Assembly: GCF_014645535.1 (NCBI RefSeq)
Contig: NZ_BMLX01000001.1
Location: 1,357,169-1,421,168 of the forward strand
Length of the DNA: 64,000 nucleotides
Reading direction: 5' to 3'
DNA from: Silvimonas iriomotensis
GTDB taxonomy: Bacteria > Pseudomonadota > Gammaproteobacteria > Burkholderiales > Chitinibacteraceae
Shown piece after piece: positions 14,266 through 62,396 of the stretch. Every line of letters begins with the position of its first letter. Position 1 is the first letter of the stretch. The position numbers were made by a program, and so were the translations under genes. Under the pieces are notes generated by a model, which searched no databases, was not told the origin of the DNA, and was given only the letters and a program-made list of their open reading frames with translations.

Positions 14266-14288
14266 AGGGTGGAGCCACGCCCCACCCT
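14266..14288 (-). terminator. Probable terminator of glyA
   Basis: Inverted repeat AGGGTGG / CCACCCT, 60 to 80 bases beyond the glyA stop. Read leftwards it is followed by TTTGCTGTTTC, a broken T run, so efficiency is uncertain. Confidence 0.5.
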
Positions 14289-54085: not shown

Positions 54086-57000
54086 TTATTCGCCCGCCCC
54101 TTGCAAGACCGCGGCTTCCTTGCGCGCCTGTTTTTTGGCGGCGCGGCGGGTCTGGACCCAATGGCTGAAGCGGTCCAGATACAAATACACCACCGGCGTG
54201 GTAAACAGCGTCAACGCTTGCGACAACACGAGGCCCCCCACCATGGCGTAACCCAGCGGTCGGCGCAATTCAGAACCGGCGCCATGGCCCAGCATCAGCG
54301 GCAGACCGGCCAGCAAGGCGCACATGGTGGTCATCATGATCGGGCGGAACCGCAAGATACACGCTTGATAGATTGATTCCTGCGGGCTCATGCCGTGATC
54401 GCGCTCTGCGGTCAGCGCAAAGTCGATCATCATGATGCCGTTCTTCTTGACGATACCGATCAGCAAGATAATCCCGATCAAGGCGATGACCGACAGATCG
54501 AACCCCGCCGCCATCAGGATCAGCAGCGCCCCCACCCCGGCCGACGGCAGCGTCGACAGGATAGTCAGCGGGTGGATATAGCTCTCGTACAGCAGACCCA
54601 GCACGATATACACGGCAATCAGCGCTGCGGCGATCAGGTACGGTTGCGAAGCCAGCGAGTCACCAAACGCCTTGGCCGTGCCCTGGAAGGCGCCGGTCAG
54701 CGTTTGCGGCACGCCCATTTCCGTCTGCGCCTTGTTGATGGCGTCCACCGCCTCGCCCAGCGATACACCACGCGCCAGGTTGAACGAGATCGTCACCGCC
54801 GGGAACTGGCTCTGGTGGCTGATCGACAAATACGCCGTCTTGTTGGTGTCGATATGCACAAAGGTCGACAGCGGCACTTGCTGGTTGGTCAGCGGCGAGG
54901 TGAGGTAGAGCTTGTCGAACAGCGCCGGATCAAGCTGCAGCTGCGGGTTGACCTCCATCACCACGTGATAGGTATTCACCTGCGTGTAGTACTGCGCAAC
55001 CTGGCGCTGGCCAATGGCGTCGTACAAGGTGGCGTCGATCAGCGAGGGCGAAATGCCGAAACTGGAGGCCCGGGCGCGGTCGATCGTCAGCACGGCCGTT
55101 GCGGCGGCGTTCTGCTGGTCAGACGCCAGATCGGTCAGCTCTGGCAGTTTGCGAAAGCGCTCCAGCAACTTCGGCGCCCAGTTGTTCAGTTCATCCAGGT
55201 TCGAGTCGGTCAGCGTGTATTGATACTGCGTCCGCGACAGGCGCCCGCCGACGTTGATGTCCTGACCGGCCTGCAGGAACAGGTTCACCCCTTCCACCTT
55301 GGCCAGTTTGGGGCGCAGGCGGGCAATGACTTCATCCGCACTCAAGGTCCGGCCTTCATCCTTGGGCTTGAGGTTGATGTAGAAATTGCCGGTATTGAAG
55401 GTGCTCTGCCCGCCCACCATGGCAAAGCTGGCTACGTCCGGATCTTGCCGGATGACATCGGCCAGCGCGCGCATGCGCTCGTTCATGGCTTTGAACGAAG
55501 AGTCTTGCGCGGTTTCCGCAAAGCCGAAGACAAAGCCGGTGTCTTGCTGCGGGAAGAACCCTTTGGGAATGAAAATGAACAGCACGACCGACAGCGCCAC
55601 GGTGCACAGGAATACGCAAAGCGTGATGAACTGGTGCTTCATCACCAGATCCAGCCCGCGGCGATAGCCCGACAACATGGCATCAAAACCACGCTCGAAC
55701 ATCTGGTAAAGCTTGCCGTGCTTGTCGCCGTGATGGTCTTTCAGAAAGCGCGAGCACAACATGGGTGTGAGCGTCAGCGAAATCACTACCGACACCGCAA
55801 TGGTCAGCGTAACGGTAATAGAGAACTCGCGGAACAGGCGCCCGACGATGCCGCCCATCAACAACAGCGGAATAAACACCGCCACCAGCGAAACCGAGAT
55901 CGAAATGATGGTGAAGCCGATCTCGCCCGCGCCTTTGTAGGCCGCATCCATCGGCGACATGCCGTCTTCCACATGCCGGTAGATGTTCTCCAGCATCACG
56001 ATGGCATCATCCACCACAAAGCCGACCGCGATGGTCAGCGCCATCAGCGACAGGTTGTCCAGGCTGAAGCCGACAAGGTACATCACCGCTGCCGTGCCCA
56101 TCAGCGCTAGCGGCACGGTCACGCTGGGGATCAGCGTGGCGGCGACGTTGCGCAGGAACACAAAGATGATGCCCACCACCAGCAAGATGGTCAGGACCAG
56201 CGTGAACTCCACATCCCGCACCGAGGCACGGATGGTCTGAGTGCGGTCAGTCAGAATGTTGACATGCACCGTGGGCGGAATCGCCGCTTGCAGGCGTGGC
56301 AGCGCCGCCTTGACGCGCTCGACGGTCTCGATCACGTTGGCGCCTGGCTGCTTGGTAATCGCCAGCACAATGGCCCGCTGGCCATTGAGAATGGTGGCGC
56401 TGGGCTCTACGGCCTGGCCGGCATAAGCCCAGCCGGCCAGCTTGGTGTTTTCCGGGCCGTCAATCGCGGTGCCGATGTCCTTGATCCGGACCGGCGCCCC
56501 GTTCTTGTAGGCAATGACCATGTCGTTCCACGGGCCGGCCTTCAGAATCTGGTCATTGGTATACACCGTGAAGCTTTGCCGATCACCGTCCACCGTGCCC
56601 TTGGGCGCATTGACCGTGGTGGTGGCGATGACCGCGCGCACGTCTTCCAGGCTCATGCCCATGGCCGACAGTTTGGCCGGGTCAAGCTGGATACGCACCG
56701 CCGGCTTTTGCTGGCCGCCAATGTTCACCAGACCCACACCCTGAATCTGCGAGATCTGCTGCGCCAGGATGTTATCGGCGTAGTCGTTGACCTCGGTCAG
56801 CGGCAAGGTGTCAGACTGCACCGCCATCACGATGATGGGCGAGTCGGCCGGGTTGATCTTGCGCCAGGTCGGCGGGTTGGGCAGGTTGTTGGGCAACTGG
56901 CCGGTCGCAGCATTGATGGCAGCCTGGACATCCACTGCCGCGGCGTCAATATTGCGGTTCAGATCAAACTGCAGCGTAATCTGGGTGGTGCCCAGCGCGC

Positions 57001-57250
57001 TGGATGACGTCATTTGCGACAGCCCCGCAATCAGCGAGAACTGCCGTTCCAGCGGCTGCGCCACGTTGGACGCCATGGTTTCCGGGCTGGCGCCAGGCAA
57101 ACTGGCAGAGACCTGGATGGTCGGGAAATCCACCTGCGGCAGCGGTGCCACCGGCAACAGGCTCCACACCGCGATACCGACCAGCAAAATGGCCGCGGCC
57201 AGCAACGACGTCCCGATGGGACGTTTGATAAAAGCAGCAGAAATACTCAC
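54086..57250 (-). CDS. RND-type multidrug efflux pump inner-membrane subunit (MdtC-like)
   Basis: The 1054-residue HAE1 family proton antiporter has the typical two-fold layout: membrane helix 1 (about 10-30), periplasmic loop, helices 2-6, then the same again. GFVVDDAIVMLENIYRHVEDG contains the proton-relay Asp pair, and both halves show the family boxes. Closest in appearance to E. coli MdtC and MuxC-type pumps. It lies 14 bases behind its adaptor gene. No outer-membrane channel gene is nearby, so TolC-like partners must be elsewhere. Substrate unknown. Confidence 0.92.
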   Translation of the reverse strand: MSISAAFIKRPIGTSLLAAAILLVGIAVWSLLPVAPLPQVDFPTIQVSASLPGASPETMASNVAQPLERQFSLIAGLSQMTSSSALGTTQITLQFDLNRNIDAAAVDVQAAINAATGQLPNNLPNPPTWRKINPADSPIIVMAVQSDTLPLTEVNDYADNILAQQISQIQGVGLVNIGGQQKPAVRIQLDPAKLSAMGMSLEDVRAVIATTTVNAPKGTVDGDRQSFTVYTNDQILKAGPWNDMVIAYKNGAPVRIKDIGTAIDGPENTKLAGWAYAGQAVEPSATILNGQRAIVLAITKQPGANVIETVERVKAALPRLQAAIPPTVHVNILTDRTQTIRASVRDVEFTLVLTILLVVGIIFVFLRNVAATLIPSVTVPLALMGTAAVMYLVGFSLDNLSLMALTIAVGFVVDDAIVMLENIYRHVEDGMSPMDAAYKGAGEIGFTIISISVSLVAVFIPLLLMGGIVGRLFREFSITVTLTIAVSVVISLTLTPMLCSRFLKDHHGDKHGKLYQMFERGFDAMLSGYRRGLDLVMKHQFITLCVFLCTVALSVVLFIFIPKGFFPQQDTGFVFGFAETAQDSSFKAMNERMRALADVIRQDPDVASFAMVGGQSTFNTGNFYINLKPKDEGRTLSADEVIARLRPKLAKVEGVNLFLQAGQDINVGGRLSRTQYQYTLTDSNLDELNNWAPKLLERFRKLPELTDLASDQQNAAATAVLTIDRARASSFGISPSLIDATLYDAIGQRQVAQYYTQVNTYHVVMEVNPQLQLDPALFDKLYLTSPLTNQQVPLSTFVHIDTNKTAYLSISHQSQFPAVTISFNLARGVSLGEAVDAINKAQTEMGVPQTLTGAFQGTAKAFGDSLASQPYLIAAALIAVYIVLGLLYESYIHPLTILSTLPSAGVGALLILMAAGFDLSVIALIGIILLIGIVKKNGIMMIDFALTAERDHGMSPQESIYQACILRFRPIMMTTMCALLAGLPLMLGHGAGSELRRPLGYAMVGGLVLSQALTLFTTPVVYLYLDRFSHWVQTRRAAKKQARKEAAVLQGAGE

Positions 57251-57264
57251 GGTGATGTCTCTAC

Positions 57265-58431
57265 TTAGTGGCTAGCCGCAGCCTGTTTCTCGGTTTCGGC
57301 CACAACCGCACCGGGCTTGAGCTTGTACTGGCCATCGATCACCACGCGATCCCCGGCATGCACACCGTCATCAATGATGGCTTTGCCGTCCTGGATCAGC
57401 GCCACTTTCACCGGCTGTGTCTGGGCCGCATTGCTGCCGTTCACGGTATAGACATAAGTACCATTCACGCCGCGCTGCACAGCGGCGGCCGGCAGCGTCA
57501 CCGCGTGATCCCGGTTACCCAGCACCAGATTCACGTTGATGTACTGCCCCGGCCACAAGGCATGTTGCGGGTTGGGGAACGTCCCCTTGAGCGAGACCGT
57601 GCCAGTGGTGGTATCGATCTGGTTATTCACCAGCGACAGCGTGCCCTGGGCCAGCGCCTCGCCGCCGGTGCGGGCATAAGCCACGACCTTGAGCGATTTG
57701 CCGCCTTGCAACGCCTTGTTCACTTGTTGCAAGGCGTCTTCCGGCAAGGTGAACGTGGCGGCAATCGGATCAATCTGGTTGATCACGACCAGACCGGTCG
57801 TATCCGTGGCGTGCACAATGTTGCCCGGATCAACCAGACGCGCCCCGGTCCGGCCAGACAACGGCGAAACAATGGTGGTGTAGCCCAGTTGAACCTGGGC
57901 GTACTGGATTTGCGCGTCGTCATTCTTGACTGCGGCTTCCAGCTGCGCGACCAGGGCCTTCTGGGTGTCCAGCGTTTGCTGGGTGGTGGCGTCCTGCTTG
58001 ATCAGGTCGCTGTAACGGGCCAGATCGCGACGGGCGTTATCCAGCTGGGCCTGATCTTTGGCTTTGGCGGCCTGCACCTGGCCTAACTGCGCCTGAAACG
58101 GGCTGGGGTCGATCTGCGCCAGCATCTGGCCGGCCTTCACGTCCTGCCCTTCCTGGAAGCCGACTTTCTGCAACTGGCCATCGACACGCACTTTCACCGT
58201 GACCGAGGCGTTGGCTTGAACCGTGCCCACGCCGGTGAGGTACACCGGCACGGATTCGTCGCCGGCCTTGACCGTGGTCACCCGGATGGCAGGAGCGGCC
58301 GCGGGTGGCTGGGTAGATGCATCGGCCTTGCGCGTGCTGGTCCATACAACCACGCCGCCCACCACCACAAGGGCAGAGGCAATGGCGATGGCGGACTGGG
58401 TTTTTCTTTGCCGGGTCATGACTTTCTTCAC
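57265..58431 (-). CDS. RND efflux periplasmic adaptor (MdtA-like, HlyD family)
   Basis: The 388-residue membrane fusion protein has an N-terminal anchor (about 12-32), a lipoyl-like segment (VGTVQANASVTVKVRVDGQL), an alpha-helical hairpin (about 115-185) and beta domains. ASVTVKVRVDGQLQKVGFQ is typical of MdtA/AcrA. It bridges the pump and the outer-membrane channel. First gene of the two-gene operon. Confidence 0.92.
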   Translation of the reverse strand: MKKVMTRQRKTQSAIAIASALVVVGGVVVWTSTRKADASTQPPAAAPAIRVTTVKAGDESVPVYLTGVGTVQANASVTVKVRVDGQLQKVGFQEGQDVKAGQMLAQIDPSPFQAQLGQVQAAKAKDQAQLDNARRDLARYSDLIKQDATTQQTLDTQKALVAQLEAAVKNDDAQIQYAQVQLGYTTIVSPLSGRTGARLVDPGNIVHATDTTGLVVINQIDPIAATFTLPEDALQQVNKALQGGKSLKVVAYARTGGEALAQGTLSLVNNQIDTTTGTVSLKGTFPNPQHALWPGQYINVNLVLGNRDHAVTLPAAAVQRGVNGTYVYTVNGSNAAQTQPVKVALIQDGKAIIDDGVHAGDRVVIDGQYKLKPGAVVAETEKQAAASH

Positions 58432-59006: not shown

Positions 59007-59549
59007 TTACTTGCCGTACTGAGCCTTGGCCTGGGCTACGCAGCTGTCCTTGCGATCACCACTGTAGGCGTCACATTTTTGCGCGGCCACTTTGTAGTCG
59101 GCATCGCGACGGGCCTGATCGGCTTCGTTGTCGGCCTTGTAGCGCGCCTTGTTGGCATCAATGTCGGCCAGCATCTTGTCGCGGTCCGCCTTGGCCGTCT
59201 GCTTGCAGACATCCTTGTCGTTACCGGCCAGACGGCCACACTTCTCTACCGAGACGTCATAGCCCGATTTGGCGCGCTCTTTGGCGGCGTCAATGCGGGC
59301 GGCGTCGGTATCTTTGTCCTGGGCCGTCAGATCAGCCATGGCGATGCTTTTATCGGCATCAGCCTGTGCTTCACAGACGTCCTTGCCGTTACCGGCCAGG
59401 GATTTACATTCTGATTTGGCGGCATCGTAACGCTGGCTGATCGCATCTTTGCGAGCGTTGTACTGATCGGTTGCCAGCTTGGCAAAACTCAAGGCCGGGG
59501 TCGCTACCAGCGCGGCAGCAATCAGGGAACGAAGAGCAAGTTGACGCAT
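59007..59549 (-). CDS. Secreted protein with three Cys-pair repeats, function unknown
   Basis: The 180-residue exported protein has a signal peptide MRQLALRSLIAAALVATPAL cut after SFA. The mature part is highly charged and helical. It contains a repeated unit C-x(7-8)-(K)D-x-C: CKSLAGNGKDVCEAQA, CGRLAGNDKDVCKQTA and CDAYSGDRKDSCVAQA at about residues 48, 103 and 161, separated by Asp/Lys/Ala-rich helix. The two cysteines in each could form a disulfide hairpin. Similar unnamed proteins occur in betaproteobacteria. It is a single-gene unit. Confidence 0.7.
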   Translation of the reverse strand: MRQLALRSLIAAALVATPALSFAKLATDQYNARKDAISQRYDAAKSECKSLAGNGKDVCEAQADADKSIAMADLTAQDKDTDAARIDAAKERAKSGYDVSVEKCGRLAGNDKDVCKQTAKADRDKMLADIDANKARYKADNEADQARRDADYKVAAQKCDAYSGDRKDSCVAQAKAQYGK

Positions 59550-59717
59550 GTCGGCACCTTTTTATCTGTATGAGAAAAAGGGCAAACGCAGCGACTACGC
59601 CGGCACGAACCGTGGCAGGGAAGATGACCGGCAGCACTGCGCTTGCCACAGCTCTACCCTACCCGGCGTCGCGCTGGCGGCCAGTCATCCACTCTTTCAG
59701 CTTTATGCAAGACAAAA

Positions 59718-59751
59718 GGCACAGGTCTGTAGGCGCTACCTGACCTGTGCC
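59718..59751 (-). terminator. Rho-independent terminator of luxI
   Basis: GGCACAGGTC / GACCTGTGCC stem with an inner GTAG/CTAC; read leftwards it ends in TTTTGTCTTG. It lies 27 bases beyond the luxI stop. Confidence 0.75.
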
Positions 59752-59778
59752 CAGGTGCTTACTGTTTTGGCAAACGGT

Positions 59779-60342
59779 TCAGTCCGGTTCCGGCACCTCA
59801 ATCAGGCAGGCAAACAAGGGATAGCCATCAATCACCATGGGCGGTGCGGCGCGGCGGGCGGTATAACCCAGTTTTCTCAGCAAGCGCTCTACGCCCAGTG
59901 GCGACACCGTAATCACCATTCTGGCGCCCAGTTGCCCGGCACACCGAATTGATTCATGCAGCAATTGGGCCGTGACGGGCGAACTGAACTGGCCTGCAGC
60001 TACCGGCGTCTGGCCGCTAAAGTCGACAGCGGCAAAACGCGATAACTCCCAGATATCAGGCGATGCAGGCGGGGCAAGCCCATTGAGTAATTGCGGAAAT
60101 ACGTCCCCGAGCAAATAGGGGCGCGTGGTAGGCAAGAGGCGCGCACAGCCGTTGATCTGGCCTCTTTCATCATGAGATACGATATAAACCGTATCCGTGC
60201 GGTCGAATTGGTCTTGTTCGATTCCCGGCGGGGTATCCAATTGCCACCCCAGCATTTCCACGAAAACTTTGTGGCGGTAAACCGACAATGCATTGGCGAC
60301 ACCGTCAGGAAGGTGTGCCGACTGTCCGGACAATATATGCAT
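59779..60342 (-). CDS. LuxI-family acyl-homoserine lactone synthase
   Basis: The 187-residue autoinducer synthase carries the family residues: Arg and Phe in VYRHKVF (Arg23, Phe27), Trp33 in LGWQL, the aspartates in EQDQFDRTDTVYIV, GCARLLPTTRPYLLGDVFP with the conserved Arg and Phe, and the Glu/Arg pair in WELSRFA. It uses S-adenosylmethionine and an acyl carrier protein; acyl length cannot be read. GGGGTGAT stands before the ATG at 60342; the open frame adds four residues. A lux-box-like palindrome lies 69 bases upstream. Confidence 0.9.
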   Translation of the reverse strand: MHILSGQSAHLPDGVANALSVYRHKVFVEMLGWQLDTPPGIEQDQFDRTDTVYIVSHDERGQINGCARLLPTTRPYLLGDVFPQLLNGLAPPASPDIWELSRFAAVDFSGQTPVAAGQFSSPVTAQLLHESIRCAGQLGARMVITVSPLGVERLLRKLGYTARRAAPPMVIDGYPLFACLIEVPEPD

Positions 60343-60410
60343 ATCACCCCGCAATAGAATATGTTGCTAAAGCAGGGGAAATAATTTGCCAGGCCCGGGG
60401 AAAGGAAAAG

Positions 60411-60426
60411 CTGTCAACGGCGACAG
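60411..60426. promoter_or_regulatory. Lux-box-like palindrome in front of luxI
   Basis: CTGTCAACGGCGACAG is an inverted repeat of form CTG-N10-CAG, and the dyad extends outward with AA/TT. It is immediately downstream of the rsaM-like stop (60430-60432) and about 69 bases before the luxI ATG, so it could sit near -42 of a luxI promoter, the usual place for LuxR-AHL activation. Confidence 0.65.
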
Positions 60427-60429
60427 TTT

Positions 60430-60861
60430 CTAAGCGTATCGGGAAGTGATAGCGGCATTGGTGGCGTCTTGCCAGATTAATCGTTCGAGTCGGGCAATCA
60501 GCAAATCCGCCGTCGCCTCGAATCCAAGATCACGGCATTGATCATCCACCAGCATGATGTTGCTTCGGGGTTTTCCACTCATCACGTAATGCGCCCGGCC
60601 ATCACGCGAACCAATTACCCAGTCCCAGCCTACAGACAATATGGGGCGTGCAGTACTGATCCACTCGGTAAAGCCACTGATGGCCGCCACGCCGGTGCCG
60701 CATTTCAAACCGCCGGTGGGCGCGTCGTCAAGCCCGGACACGAGATGTATCAGCTCTGTATCCAGAAGTGCCTTGCAATCAAGCCGGATATAACCGTCTT
60801 CGCACAGGCCCAAAGAGCCGGTTAAAACCGGGCCGGTTTTCAAAACAATGGGGGAAGACAT
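60430..60861 (-). CDS. RsaM-like (DUF4902) regulator of quorum sensing
   Basis: The 143-residue cytoplasmic protein has no known catalytic motif. It has the features I recall for the DUF4902/RsaM family of Burkholderia and Ralstonia: CEDGYIRLDCKALLD, SGFTEWISTARPILSVGWDW, and PRSNIMLVDDQCRDLGFEAT. RsaM proteins lie between luxI and luxR genes and dampen AHL synthesis. Here it is between luxR (divergent) and luxI (downstream, same strand), the same position. The assignment rests on the pattern and neighbours. Confidence 0.8.
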   Translation of the reverse strand: MSSPIVLKTGPVLTGSLGLCEDGYIRLDCKALLDTELIHLVSGLDDAPTGGLKCGTGVAAISGFTEWISTARPILSVGWDWVIGSRDGRAHYVMSGKPRSNIMLVDDQCRDLGFEATADLLIARLERLIWQDATNAAITSRYA

Positions 60862-60925
60862 TTCCGGCAGCCTTTACTGCATTCAGGGTTGACCAGTTTA
60901 TAAAAGAAGCCAAAAGCGTTGCCAG

Positions 60926-60948
60926 TGTCAGAGTTGTCAGATTGTCAG
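60926..60948. repeat. Three TGTCAG direct repeats in the rsaM-like/luxR promoter region
   Basis: TGTCAG occurs at 60926-60931, 60935-60940 and 60943-60948, spaced 9 and 8 bases. They sit 53 to 75 bases before the luxR ATG and on the divergent side of the rsaM-like gene. The lux box in front of luxI carries the related half-sites CTGTC and GACAG, but these repeats do not form an inverted lux box. Confidence 0.55.
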
Positions 60949-61000
60949 GCCTCTGGCGCCACACCATGACGGGGCGAGACGGGCAAAACGGGGGAATACA

Positions 61001-61711
61001 ATGTCACCTTTTATTGAAGAAAATCTTCACTCTTTGCTGACTATTCACGACCAGAACCTGTATTTCAGCAAAGTTACACAACTGGCGCAGGCCATTGGTT
61101 TCGAGTTCTGCGCCTACGGCGCGCGCATGCCTTTTCCGCTGAGCGCACCCCGCACCGAGATGGTCAACAACTACCCGGCCGCATGGCAGAACTGCTACGC
61201 CGAACATCACTACATCATGCAGGACCCCACCGTGGCCCACGGTGCGCGTTCCATGGTCCCGCTGGTATGGAGCGACGAGTTGTTCGCGGACTCAAGGGAT
61301 CTGTGGGAGGACGCCCGCTCCTACGGCCTGCGCAATGGCTGGGCGCAAGGTTGCCGCGATGGCAATGGTGTCGTGGGCATGTTGACCGTGGCCCGCTCTG
61401 GCGAGTCCATCACCGCAACGGAGCTTGGCGAAAAAGAGCCGCTGCTGGCCTACCTGACCCAGGTCACACATGTCGGATTGTCACGGTTTTTCCTTGAACA
61501 TTCCTCCTACGGGCATGAAGTCAAACTGACCCCGCGTGAAACAGAGATCCTGCGCTGGACAGCCGAAGGCAAAACATCGGCCGAAATTGGCGATATCCTG
61601 AATATTGCTGAACGCACGGTTAATTTTCATGTGAACAGCACGCTGGCCAAACTGAATGCGGCCAACAAAACTTCCGCTGTTGTCCAGGCTGCTTTGCGCG
61701 GCCTGCTCTGA
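61001..61711 (+). CDS. LuxR-family AHL-responsive transcriptional regulator
   Basis: The 236-residue protein has an autoinducer-binding domain (about 20-160) with the family residues in YPAAWQNCYAEHHYIMQDP (Trp, Tyr, Asp, Pro), LVWSDEL (Trp) and YGLRNGWAQG (Gly), and a C-terminal LuxR helix-turn-helix (about 172-232; LTPRETEILRWTAEGKTSAEIGDILNIAERTVNFHVNSTLAKLNA). It binds AHL made by the neighbouring synthase, as inferred from adjacency. Divergent from the rsaM-like gene; ends at a terminator. Confidence 0.92.
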   Translation: MSPFIEENLHSLLTIHDQNLYFSKVTQLAQAIGFEFCAYGARMPFPLSAPRTEMVNNYPAAWQNCYAEHHYIMQDPTVAHGARSMVPLVWSDELFADSRDLWEDARSYGLRNGWAQGCRDGNGVVGMLTVARSGESITATELGEKEPLLAYLTQVTHVGLSRFFLEHSSYGHEVKLTPRETEILRWTAEGKTSAEIGDILNIAERTVNFHVNSTLAKLNAANKTSAVVQAALRGLL

Positions 61712-61751
61712 TCCGGTTTGATCTGAAAACCGGATATCCGGGCTGACCATC

Positions 61752-61776
61752 AACGCCGGCATTAGCCGGCGTTTCC
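61752..61776 (+). terminator. Rho-independent terminator of luxR
   Basis: AACGCCGGC / GCCGGCGTT stem with ATTA loop and a short TTT end, 41 bases after the stop. Confidence 0.75.
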
Positions 61777-62396
61777 CCTTGATGAGCTGCCCCTGCACTA
61801 CCCTCTCATTGATATTGCTGATGCCATATGGCATTCATCACCGGGCAGATTGTGCAGCAAATGACGGCAGAAATCTGCCTGTCACTTATGGCAGTCACGG
61901 CCCGCAATGAAATCTCAAACCAGATTCATCATTTTTGCCAATGCAATTGATTAAAAACCGTGTTTTATGGCAACCGGTTTATCCACCTTTTTTAATCAAA
62001 GATCAAGCAACAACTAATCTATCAGAAATATCTGCACATGAATCCTTCAAATACATCAATCCAGAAAATCAATCACGGCCCACTGATCACACCAGCGATT
62101 GGGTCCATATCCGCGCTTCCCCTGTTTGCTGATAATCCGGGCATTAAACGCCCGTATCAATGATTAACGGTCGCTAATATGGCCTGGGAACGCTGTGTCG
62201 CCAGCGCCGCGCACCGGATGAACTGTGGTAAATCTGCTGCAGATTGGGCCCCCAAAACAGGCAAGTCCATGCCACCGTTAGTCGGGAATTCTTTCTAGCC
62301 TGGAAATAATGTGCGTGGCCAACCGGTTAAAGGGTTGCAGCGCTTGAATTGAGAACCGTTCTCGACAACCCGCTGTTACAACGGCACAATCGCCCC
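61777..62396. other. Gene-free region between luxR and the copper cluster (620 bases)
   Basis: No gene I can support. About 61890-62060 is clearly AT-richer than the rest of the window; the one ORF there (61935-62132) lacks a ribosome-binding site and any recognisable motif. A small hairpin CGGGC / GCCCG lies near 62137-62154. Confidence 0.5.

Follow-up and report, generated by a model that had tools for sequence, protein, structure and literature searches.

The luxI-rsaM-luxR locus of Silvimonas iriomotensis, located in a stretch of 64,000 nucleotides (the window) of the 4.59-Mb genome, is best explained as the complete and single AHL quorum-sensing circuit of this Silvimonas species in the type-1 layout of rsaM loci. 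As the full explanation we consider it probable that this single circuit combines an autoinduced luxI with a signal-induced, AHL-lowering RsaM; on the best reading of the sequence, the signal would induce both the synthase and the damper. In its composition the locus is an ordinary, well-formed example of a known three-gene quorum-sensing arrangement, the features of which are collected in Table 1.

Table 1. Features of the quorum-sensing locus and of its downstream flank, in positions of the window.
Feature	Position	Strand	Basis
luxI, AHL synthase, 186 aa from ATG	59779-60339	-	Pfam PF00765 (Autoind_synth), 84.9 bits, cut-off 24
rsaM-type gene, DUF4902, 143 aa	60430-60861	-	Pfam PF16245, 108.3 bits, cut-off 25, residues 21-135
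luxR, AHL receptor/activator, 236 aa	61001-61711	+	PF03472 (Autoind_bind), 124 bits; PF00196 (GerE), 71 bits
Predicted lux box 1, 16 bp, 71 bp upstream of luxI ATG	60411-60426	-	Matrix, place, conservation
Predicted lux box 2, 16 bp, in the rsaM-luxR intergenic stretch, 63 bp upstream of rsaM ATG	60925-60940		Matrix
Probable intrinsic terminator downstream of luxI, a hairpin followed by a T-rich run	59719-59755	-	Folding of 59705-59785

The rsaM gene is flanked on one side by luxI, with which it is in tandem on the same strand, and on the other by the divergent luxR, and the proteins exceed the curated Pfam cut-offs, LuxR with both its Autoind_bind and its GerE domain and the 143-residue protein as a member of DUF4902. 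The initial annotation had described luxI and a DUF4902/RsaM gene running leftwards beside a divergent luxR in a Neisseriales-like genome, and had named a missing DUF4902 match as a result that would speak against it; the Pfam matches and a phmmer match of the RsaM-like protein to the solved structure 4o2h, that of BCAM1869 (E 1.5e-17, residues 8-137 of 142), bear this description out, and Silvimonas does belong to the Neisseriales (family Chitinibacteraceae). NCBIfam offered no family for the 143-aa protein, and among the matches listed for LuxI and LuxR no model exceeded its cut-off. The luxI frame stays open upstream to a TTG at 60354. Both length and position of the RsaM protein agree with the published definition of rsaM, a gene for 140-170 aa adjoining luxI and/or luxR (PMC10710839), and the tryptophan quartet, which is named as a feature of the family (PMC8088503; PMC10710839), is present as W67, W79, W81 and W130, the respective columns holding tryptophan in 42, 43, 43 and 43 of 43 aligned RsaM rows, A. 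baumannii included. The RsaM fold, a five-stranded sheet around two helices forming a dimer, may be shared by the Silvimonas protein, which matches 4o2h in sequence; an AlphaFold2 model of the Silvimonas protein, built with three aligned sequences, reached a mean pLDDT of 31.3. That the circuit is the single one of the genome is indicated by one luxI that exceeds the Pfam cut-off, the other luxI-like match being sub-threshold and an acetyltransferase by Pfam, and by a single LuxR with Autoind_bind over cut-off. The arrangement corresponds to type 1, the commonest rsaM topology, described from many genera with rsaM between luxI and luxR (PMC10710839), and to the M1 layout, in which rsaM, equally placed, is in tandem with luxI and luxR is divergent (PMC3742214).

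Two lux boxes are predicted in the intergenic stretches. The 16-bp matrix was derived from four CepR boxes (PMC1766932, Table 2) and the abaI box (PMC8088503), none from the Silvimonas genome; as it contains the cepI and abaI boxes, there is some circularity in the luxI-box scores of Burkholderia and Acinetobacter, and none in those of the Silvimonas boxes and of rsaM-side boxes. In the scan of the 64 kb, box 2 ranks first (13.5) and box 1 second (11.3, a value that a third site at 14287 equals to one decimal). Shuffles of the two intergenic stretches attained their top scores in 4/2000 and 13/2000 cases; these shuffles, like those of the box and hexamer tests below, preserve base composition and not dinucleotides. 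The two places rank first and second in 19 kb of genomes G040 and G042, first and third in G041, and first and second in reversed order in a genome of another genus of the family (G025). Box 1 is found in all four genus genomes with its distance to luxI constant within 5 bp, and is followed 24 bp further on by a -10-like AATTAT; a -10-like TATAAA lies 22 bp from box 2 on the rsaM side. The visible candidate lux box of the initial annotation, given there with no place, is most likely box 1; that annotation knew of one box, and the higher-scoring box 2 was overlooked.

The plain pattern CTGT-N8-ACAG, with one match in 64 kb against 0.61 expected, is alone no evidence, and box 1 is credible because of place, conservation and matrix rather than the plain pattern. 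For CTGTC-N6-GACAG the four genus genomes have 3, 5, 3 and 3 places, and comparison of the matched sequences shows the luxI site as the sole one common to all; two other places (L096, L100), inspected for a wider regulon, showed no link to the locus. A pattern derived from box 2 is found once per genus genome (4/4), at this place; given this derivation, the informative part is its absence elsewhere. A simple promoter scan of 59600-61900 gave no sigma-70-like site. Box 1 lies just past the rsaM stop and could form a weak, terminator-like hairpin before a T-rich run, the folding of which is no better than that of shuffles. A third lux-box-like site lies at 61879-61894, about 170 bp beyond the luxR stop and with no clear gene start near; its core recurs in the four genus genomes within poorly aligned surrounding DNA, and it scores 15.8 (rank 2 of 19 kb) in G041 and 6.9 (rank 24 of 64 kb) in the window.

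From the genes, their families and conservation, the two boxes and the promoter geometry, we infer that LuxR would bind and activate both promoters and that RsaM would damp the output. In the proposed circuit LuxI would provide AHL, LuxR with AHL would bind box 1 and raise luxI (autoinduction) as well as bind box 2 and raise rsaM, and RsaM would lower AHL output and bound the response, a net design of positive feedback plus a signal-induced brake that would constitute an incoherent feed-forward circuit. The lux boxes which such a circuit requires at the promoters of both synthase and damper are predicted here from sequence and spacing. A feed-forward reading has been proposed generally (PMC3658600; PMC3386692), and the incoherent feed-forward circuit for abaR/abaM/abaI, with promoter fusions in which AHL raises abaM, AHL also being higher without abaM (PMC8088503).

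Which of the two divergent genes box 2 serves was addressed with 22 type-1 representatives with RsaM proteins less than 60% identical, none of which was left out (L022, L023, L025 and L028 included). Against coding-sequence controls (p<0.05) the luxI-side box was significant in 19/22 and the rsaM-luxR box in 17/22; against shuffles of the same stretch these numbers were 19/22 and 12/22. Three loci (L022, L025, L028) have neither box, and L023 has the luxI box only. A -10-like hexamer, taken as four or more of six matches at a gap of 21-24 bp from the box, stands on the rsaM side of 15 of the 22 loci and equally at 15 of the 22 luxI boxes, each count being reached in 0/500 shuffles, while none of eleven other gap ranges gave more than 7 on the rsaM side or more than 8 at the luxI box. 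Facing luxR, the hexamer occurs in 3/22, as in shuffles, and behind the luxI box in 6/22. Class-II lux boxes are centred near -42.5, which is where the gap of 21-24 bp places the box centre; for rsaM of Silvimonas, transcription would be predicted to start some 42 bp past the centre of box 2. As this spacing is much commoner on the rsaM side than on the luxR side, box 2 is most simply read as an activator site of rsaM itself.

Box 2 could instead mediate autoregulation of the receptor gene luxR, with rsaM independent of the signal and RsaM a constant damper. The position between the divergent pair, with luxR about 60 bp and rsaM 63 bp away, is compatible with this, one box can act on both sides and autorepression is described for the gene of CepR (PMC1766932), yet the far rarer hexamer at activating distance on the luxR side and the induction of abaM by AHL in fusions (PMC8088503) argue against it, and we regard luxR as an unlikely sole target. 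Repression of luxR would not need an activating spacing, and both roles of box 2 may hold.

With box 2 taken as an activator site of rsaM, its generality can be considered. That rsaM has its own class-II LuxR box in the majority of the type-1 loci sampled, which range from Neisseriales and Burkholderiales to Acinetobacter, which would make the damper a direct target of the signal, is a proposition to which the predicted boxes lend even chances. Ten further rsaM copies from a search of the G319 family weigh on it: four carry box 2 with the hexamer and are Burkholderia-family loci like ones already counted, while the six without clear ones, among them second copies and copies without an adjoining luxR, weigh against generality. 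The two-box design, as predicted from the sequences, is common among rsaM loci and not universal. Second divergent rsaM copies of Burkholderia-family genomes (L120, L121, L122) show type-1 order with both clear boxes absent. Four luxI loci without rsaM in the same family or related genomes have a high-scoring luxI box in one case (L045), a middling one in another (L039) and none in two.

Among known systems, the abaR/abaM/abaI locus of A. baumannii (PMC8088503) resembles the Silvimonas locus in gene order and directions, in being a single quorum-sensing locus, in the four tryptophans and in predicted lux boxes upstream of both abaM and abaI, both of which were also found here in the A. baumannii copy L111; in Silvimonas box 2 lies 63 bp before the rsaM ATG, as compared with 68 bp for abaM (PMC8088503). 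The proteins of the two organisms are 35% (RsaM), 56% (LuxI) and 44% (LuxR) identical, luxR and rsaM are separated between matched parts by 819 bp in A. baumannii versus 226 in Silvimonas, and function has been tested experimentally for the aba locus (PMC8088503). The Burkholderia cepR/rsaM/cepI locus (BCAM1869, 4o2h) shares gene order, DUF4902 and a 16-bp cep-type box before luxI, at 72 bp from the cepI ORF (PMC1766932, Table 2) and at 71 bp in Silvimonas. The Burkholderia cep type, with which the layout had been matched initially, is right with respect to gene order alone; that order is the commonest rsaM topology and is shared by many genera (PMC10710839), and the proteins lie outside the Burkholderia cepIR-rsaM clade.

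This follows from trees of 43/65 RsaM, 43/65 LuxI and 41/63 LuxR rows, the 22 rows left out being Burkholderia-family loci (L066-L089 except L078 and L084), and the tryptophan counts above use the same RsaM rows. In all three trees, including the RsaM tree suggested as a check at the outset, the Silvimonas proteins fall outside the Burkholderia clade, and the four Silvimonas rows group together (RsaM 100/98, LuxI 96/77, LuxR 100/99). A recent horizontal acquisition from a Burkholderia cep locus, to which the matching gene order and box type and the patchy presence of rsaM in the family (7/43 genomes) could point, is disfavoured by these trees, by identities to a B. cenocepacia copy of 38% (RsaM), 49% (LuxI) and 42% (LuxR), and by flanks common to the genus genomes, and we hold it to be highly improbable. 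Since flanking genes are common to the four genus genomes, the quorum-sensing locus most likely predates the genus Silvimonas. LuxR pairs with that of G255, a genome of another family (96/94), and the deep branches of the RsaM and LuxI trees are poorly supported and would be compatible with an older transfer from elsewhere. Compared with the three sister genomes, identities are 87, 74 and 58% for RsaM, 94, 93 and 73% for LuxI and 98, 92 and 80% for LuxR, RsaM being the fastest-changing of the three proteins.

Order and direction of the three genes are identical in the four Silvimonas genomes, and a scan of named genomes returned two Silvimonas loci, those of S. amylolytica (RsaM 88%) and S. 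terrae (RsaM 71%). Within the family, DUF4902 was found in 7/43 genomes, including 4/4 of the genus, and luxI over cut-off in 11/43; in an order-level sample DUF4902 was detected in 25/399 genomes with an E-value limit of 0.001, of which 24 exceeded the cut-off, in a class-level sample 2/369, one being the window's own, and in the family of G319, with Burkholderia-like loci included, 36/200. Further family searches for rsaM gave no new loci. A total of 69 loci was read, 65 picked for rsaM and four for luxI without rsaM; all three genes lie within the fetched stretch in 56 of these, 54 of which have the order and directions of the window. Chitiniphilus, of the same family Chitinibacteraceae, is already in print with an rsaM of type 7b, and in type 7 the likely cognate luxR is 3-33 kb away (PMC10710839), whereas in Silvimonas it adjoins. 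In two same-family genomes (L053 in G015, L054 in G013) no luxR was found beside rsaM-luxI within 19 kb, a layout that resembles type 7. Eleven plasmid records and two phage-labelled records encode a relative, all below 60% identity, and no pointer to mobility of the Silvimonas locus was found. One 3,672-bp record titled B. glumae plasmid pBGA40 (L109; NC_025024.1, 1-3499) holds only luxR, rsaM, luxI and argC and is perhaps a cloned or misassigned fragment.

RsaM has been described as exerting dominant control over AHL signalling by a mode of action that has yet to be found, and is reported to have affinity for neither DNA nor AHL (PMC10710839), on which account a protein target is likely; RsaM would more probably act by contact with LuxR, LuxI or the transcription/translation machinery than by binding DNA or AHL. 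A complex with LuxR would agree with the existence of proteins in which RsaM and LuxR are fused (PMC10710839). Most of the relatives described in print regulate AHL output negatively (PMC10710839). BcRsaM reportedly lowers C8-HSL although it raises the transcription of cepI and cepR (PMC5717390), and TofM acts positively on toxoflavin production (PMC10710839; PMC3527420), so that sign and level of RsaM action vary. Like TofM, the Silvimonas protein might be mainly a positive or global regulator that does not damp AHL output, given that RsaM and AbaM control many genes, partly outside quorum sensing (PMC10710839), and that RsaM changes fastest of the three proteins; against this stand the AHL overproduction seen in P. 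fuscovaginae, A. baumannii and B. thailandensis when the rsaM-type gene is mutated (PMC10710839; PMC8088503; PMC5717390) and the family residues retained in Silvimonas, and such a role seems quite unlikely here. VioS of Chromobacterium violaceum, a negative regulator of quorum-sensing-controlled genes in the Neisseriales, leaves AHL levels and cviI/cviR expression unchanged and is set apart from RsaM by its authors (PMC5339254); an identity of the two was rejected on that ground.

Downstream, luxI probably ends in a strong terminator, the folding energy of 59705-59785 being -32.4 kcal/mol (z -3.47; 0/200 shuffles as good), and the RND pump genes at 54086-58431 are therefore probably a separate unit; one operon of luxI and pump is disfavoured. 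These genes, on the minus strand, encode an RND efflux pump and a membrane-fusion protein (ACR_tran 1034 bits, HlyD_D23 46 bits) and lie near the quorum-sensing locus in all four genus genomes. Next after luxI, 59007-59549 (minus strand) encodes an Ala/Lys/Asp/Cys-rich protein of 180 aa kept in 4/4 genus genomes, with a signal peptide as judged by eye and no Pfam family over cut-off. On the other flank, the palindrome GAGAACCGTTCTC at 62351-62363, upstream of DUF2946, CopC and CopD genes, is retained in 3/4 genus genomes according to the alignment.

In the literature covered, no paper on quorum sensing in Silvimonas was found, nor one that pairs RsaM with Neisseriales by name, Chitiniphilus being listed without that word in PMC10710839. 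For a lux box of an rsaM gene, only PMC8088503 was found among the passages covered. The two-box pattern may already be partly known; the addition here is that the damper seems wired to the signal in Silvimonas and, as the predicted boxes suggest, in many relatives.

Being a soil genus in which luxI, an AHL-binding luxR and rsaM each occur once, Silvimonas offers a clean place to study how RsaM acts. The boxes predict rsaM to be a direct quorum-sensing target, for which support from promoter fusions was found, in the passages covered, for A. baumannii only (PMC8088503), and box 2 provides a sequence mark by which rsaM loci can be divided into wired and unwired sets. If the wiring holds for most type-1 loci, the brake would be an old element that these circuits have in common, and the box-less rsaM branches would show where the wiring has disappeared or has never existed.
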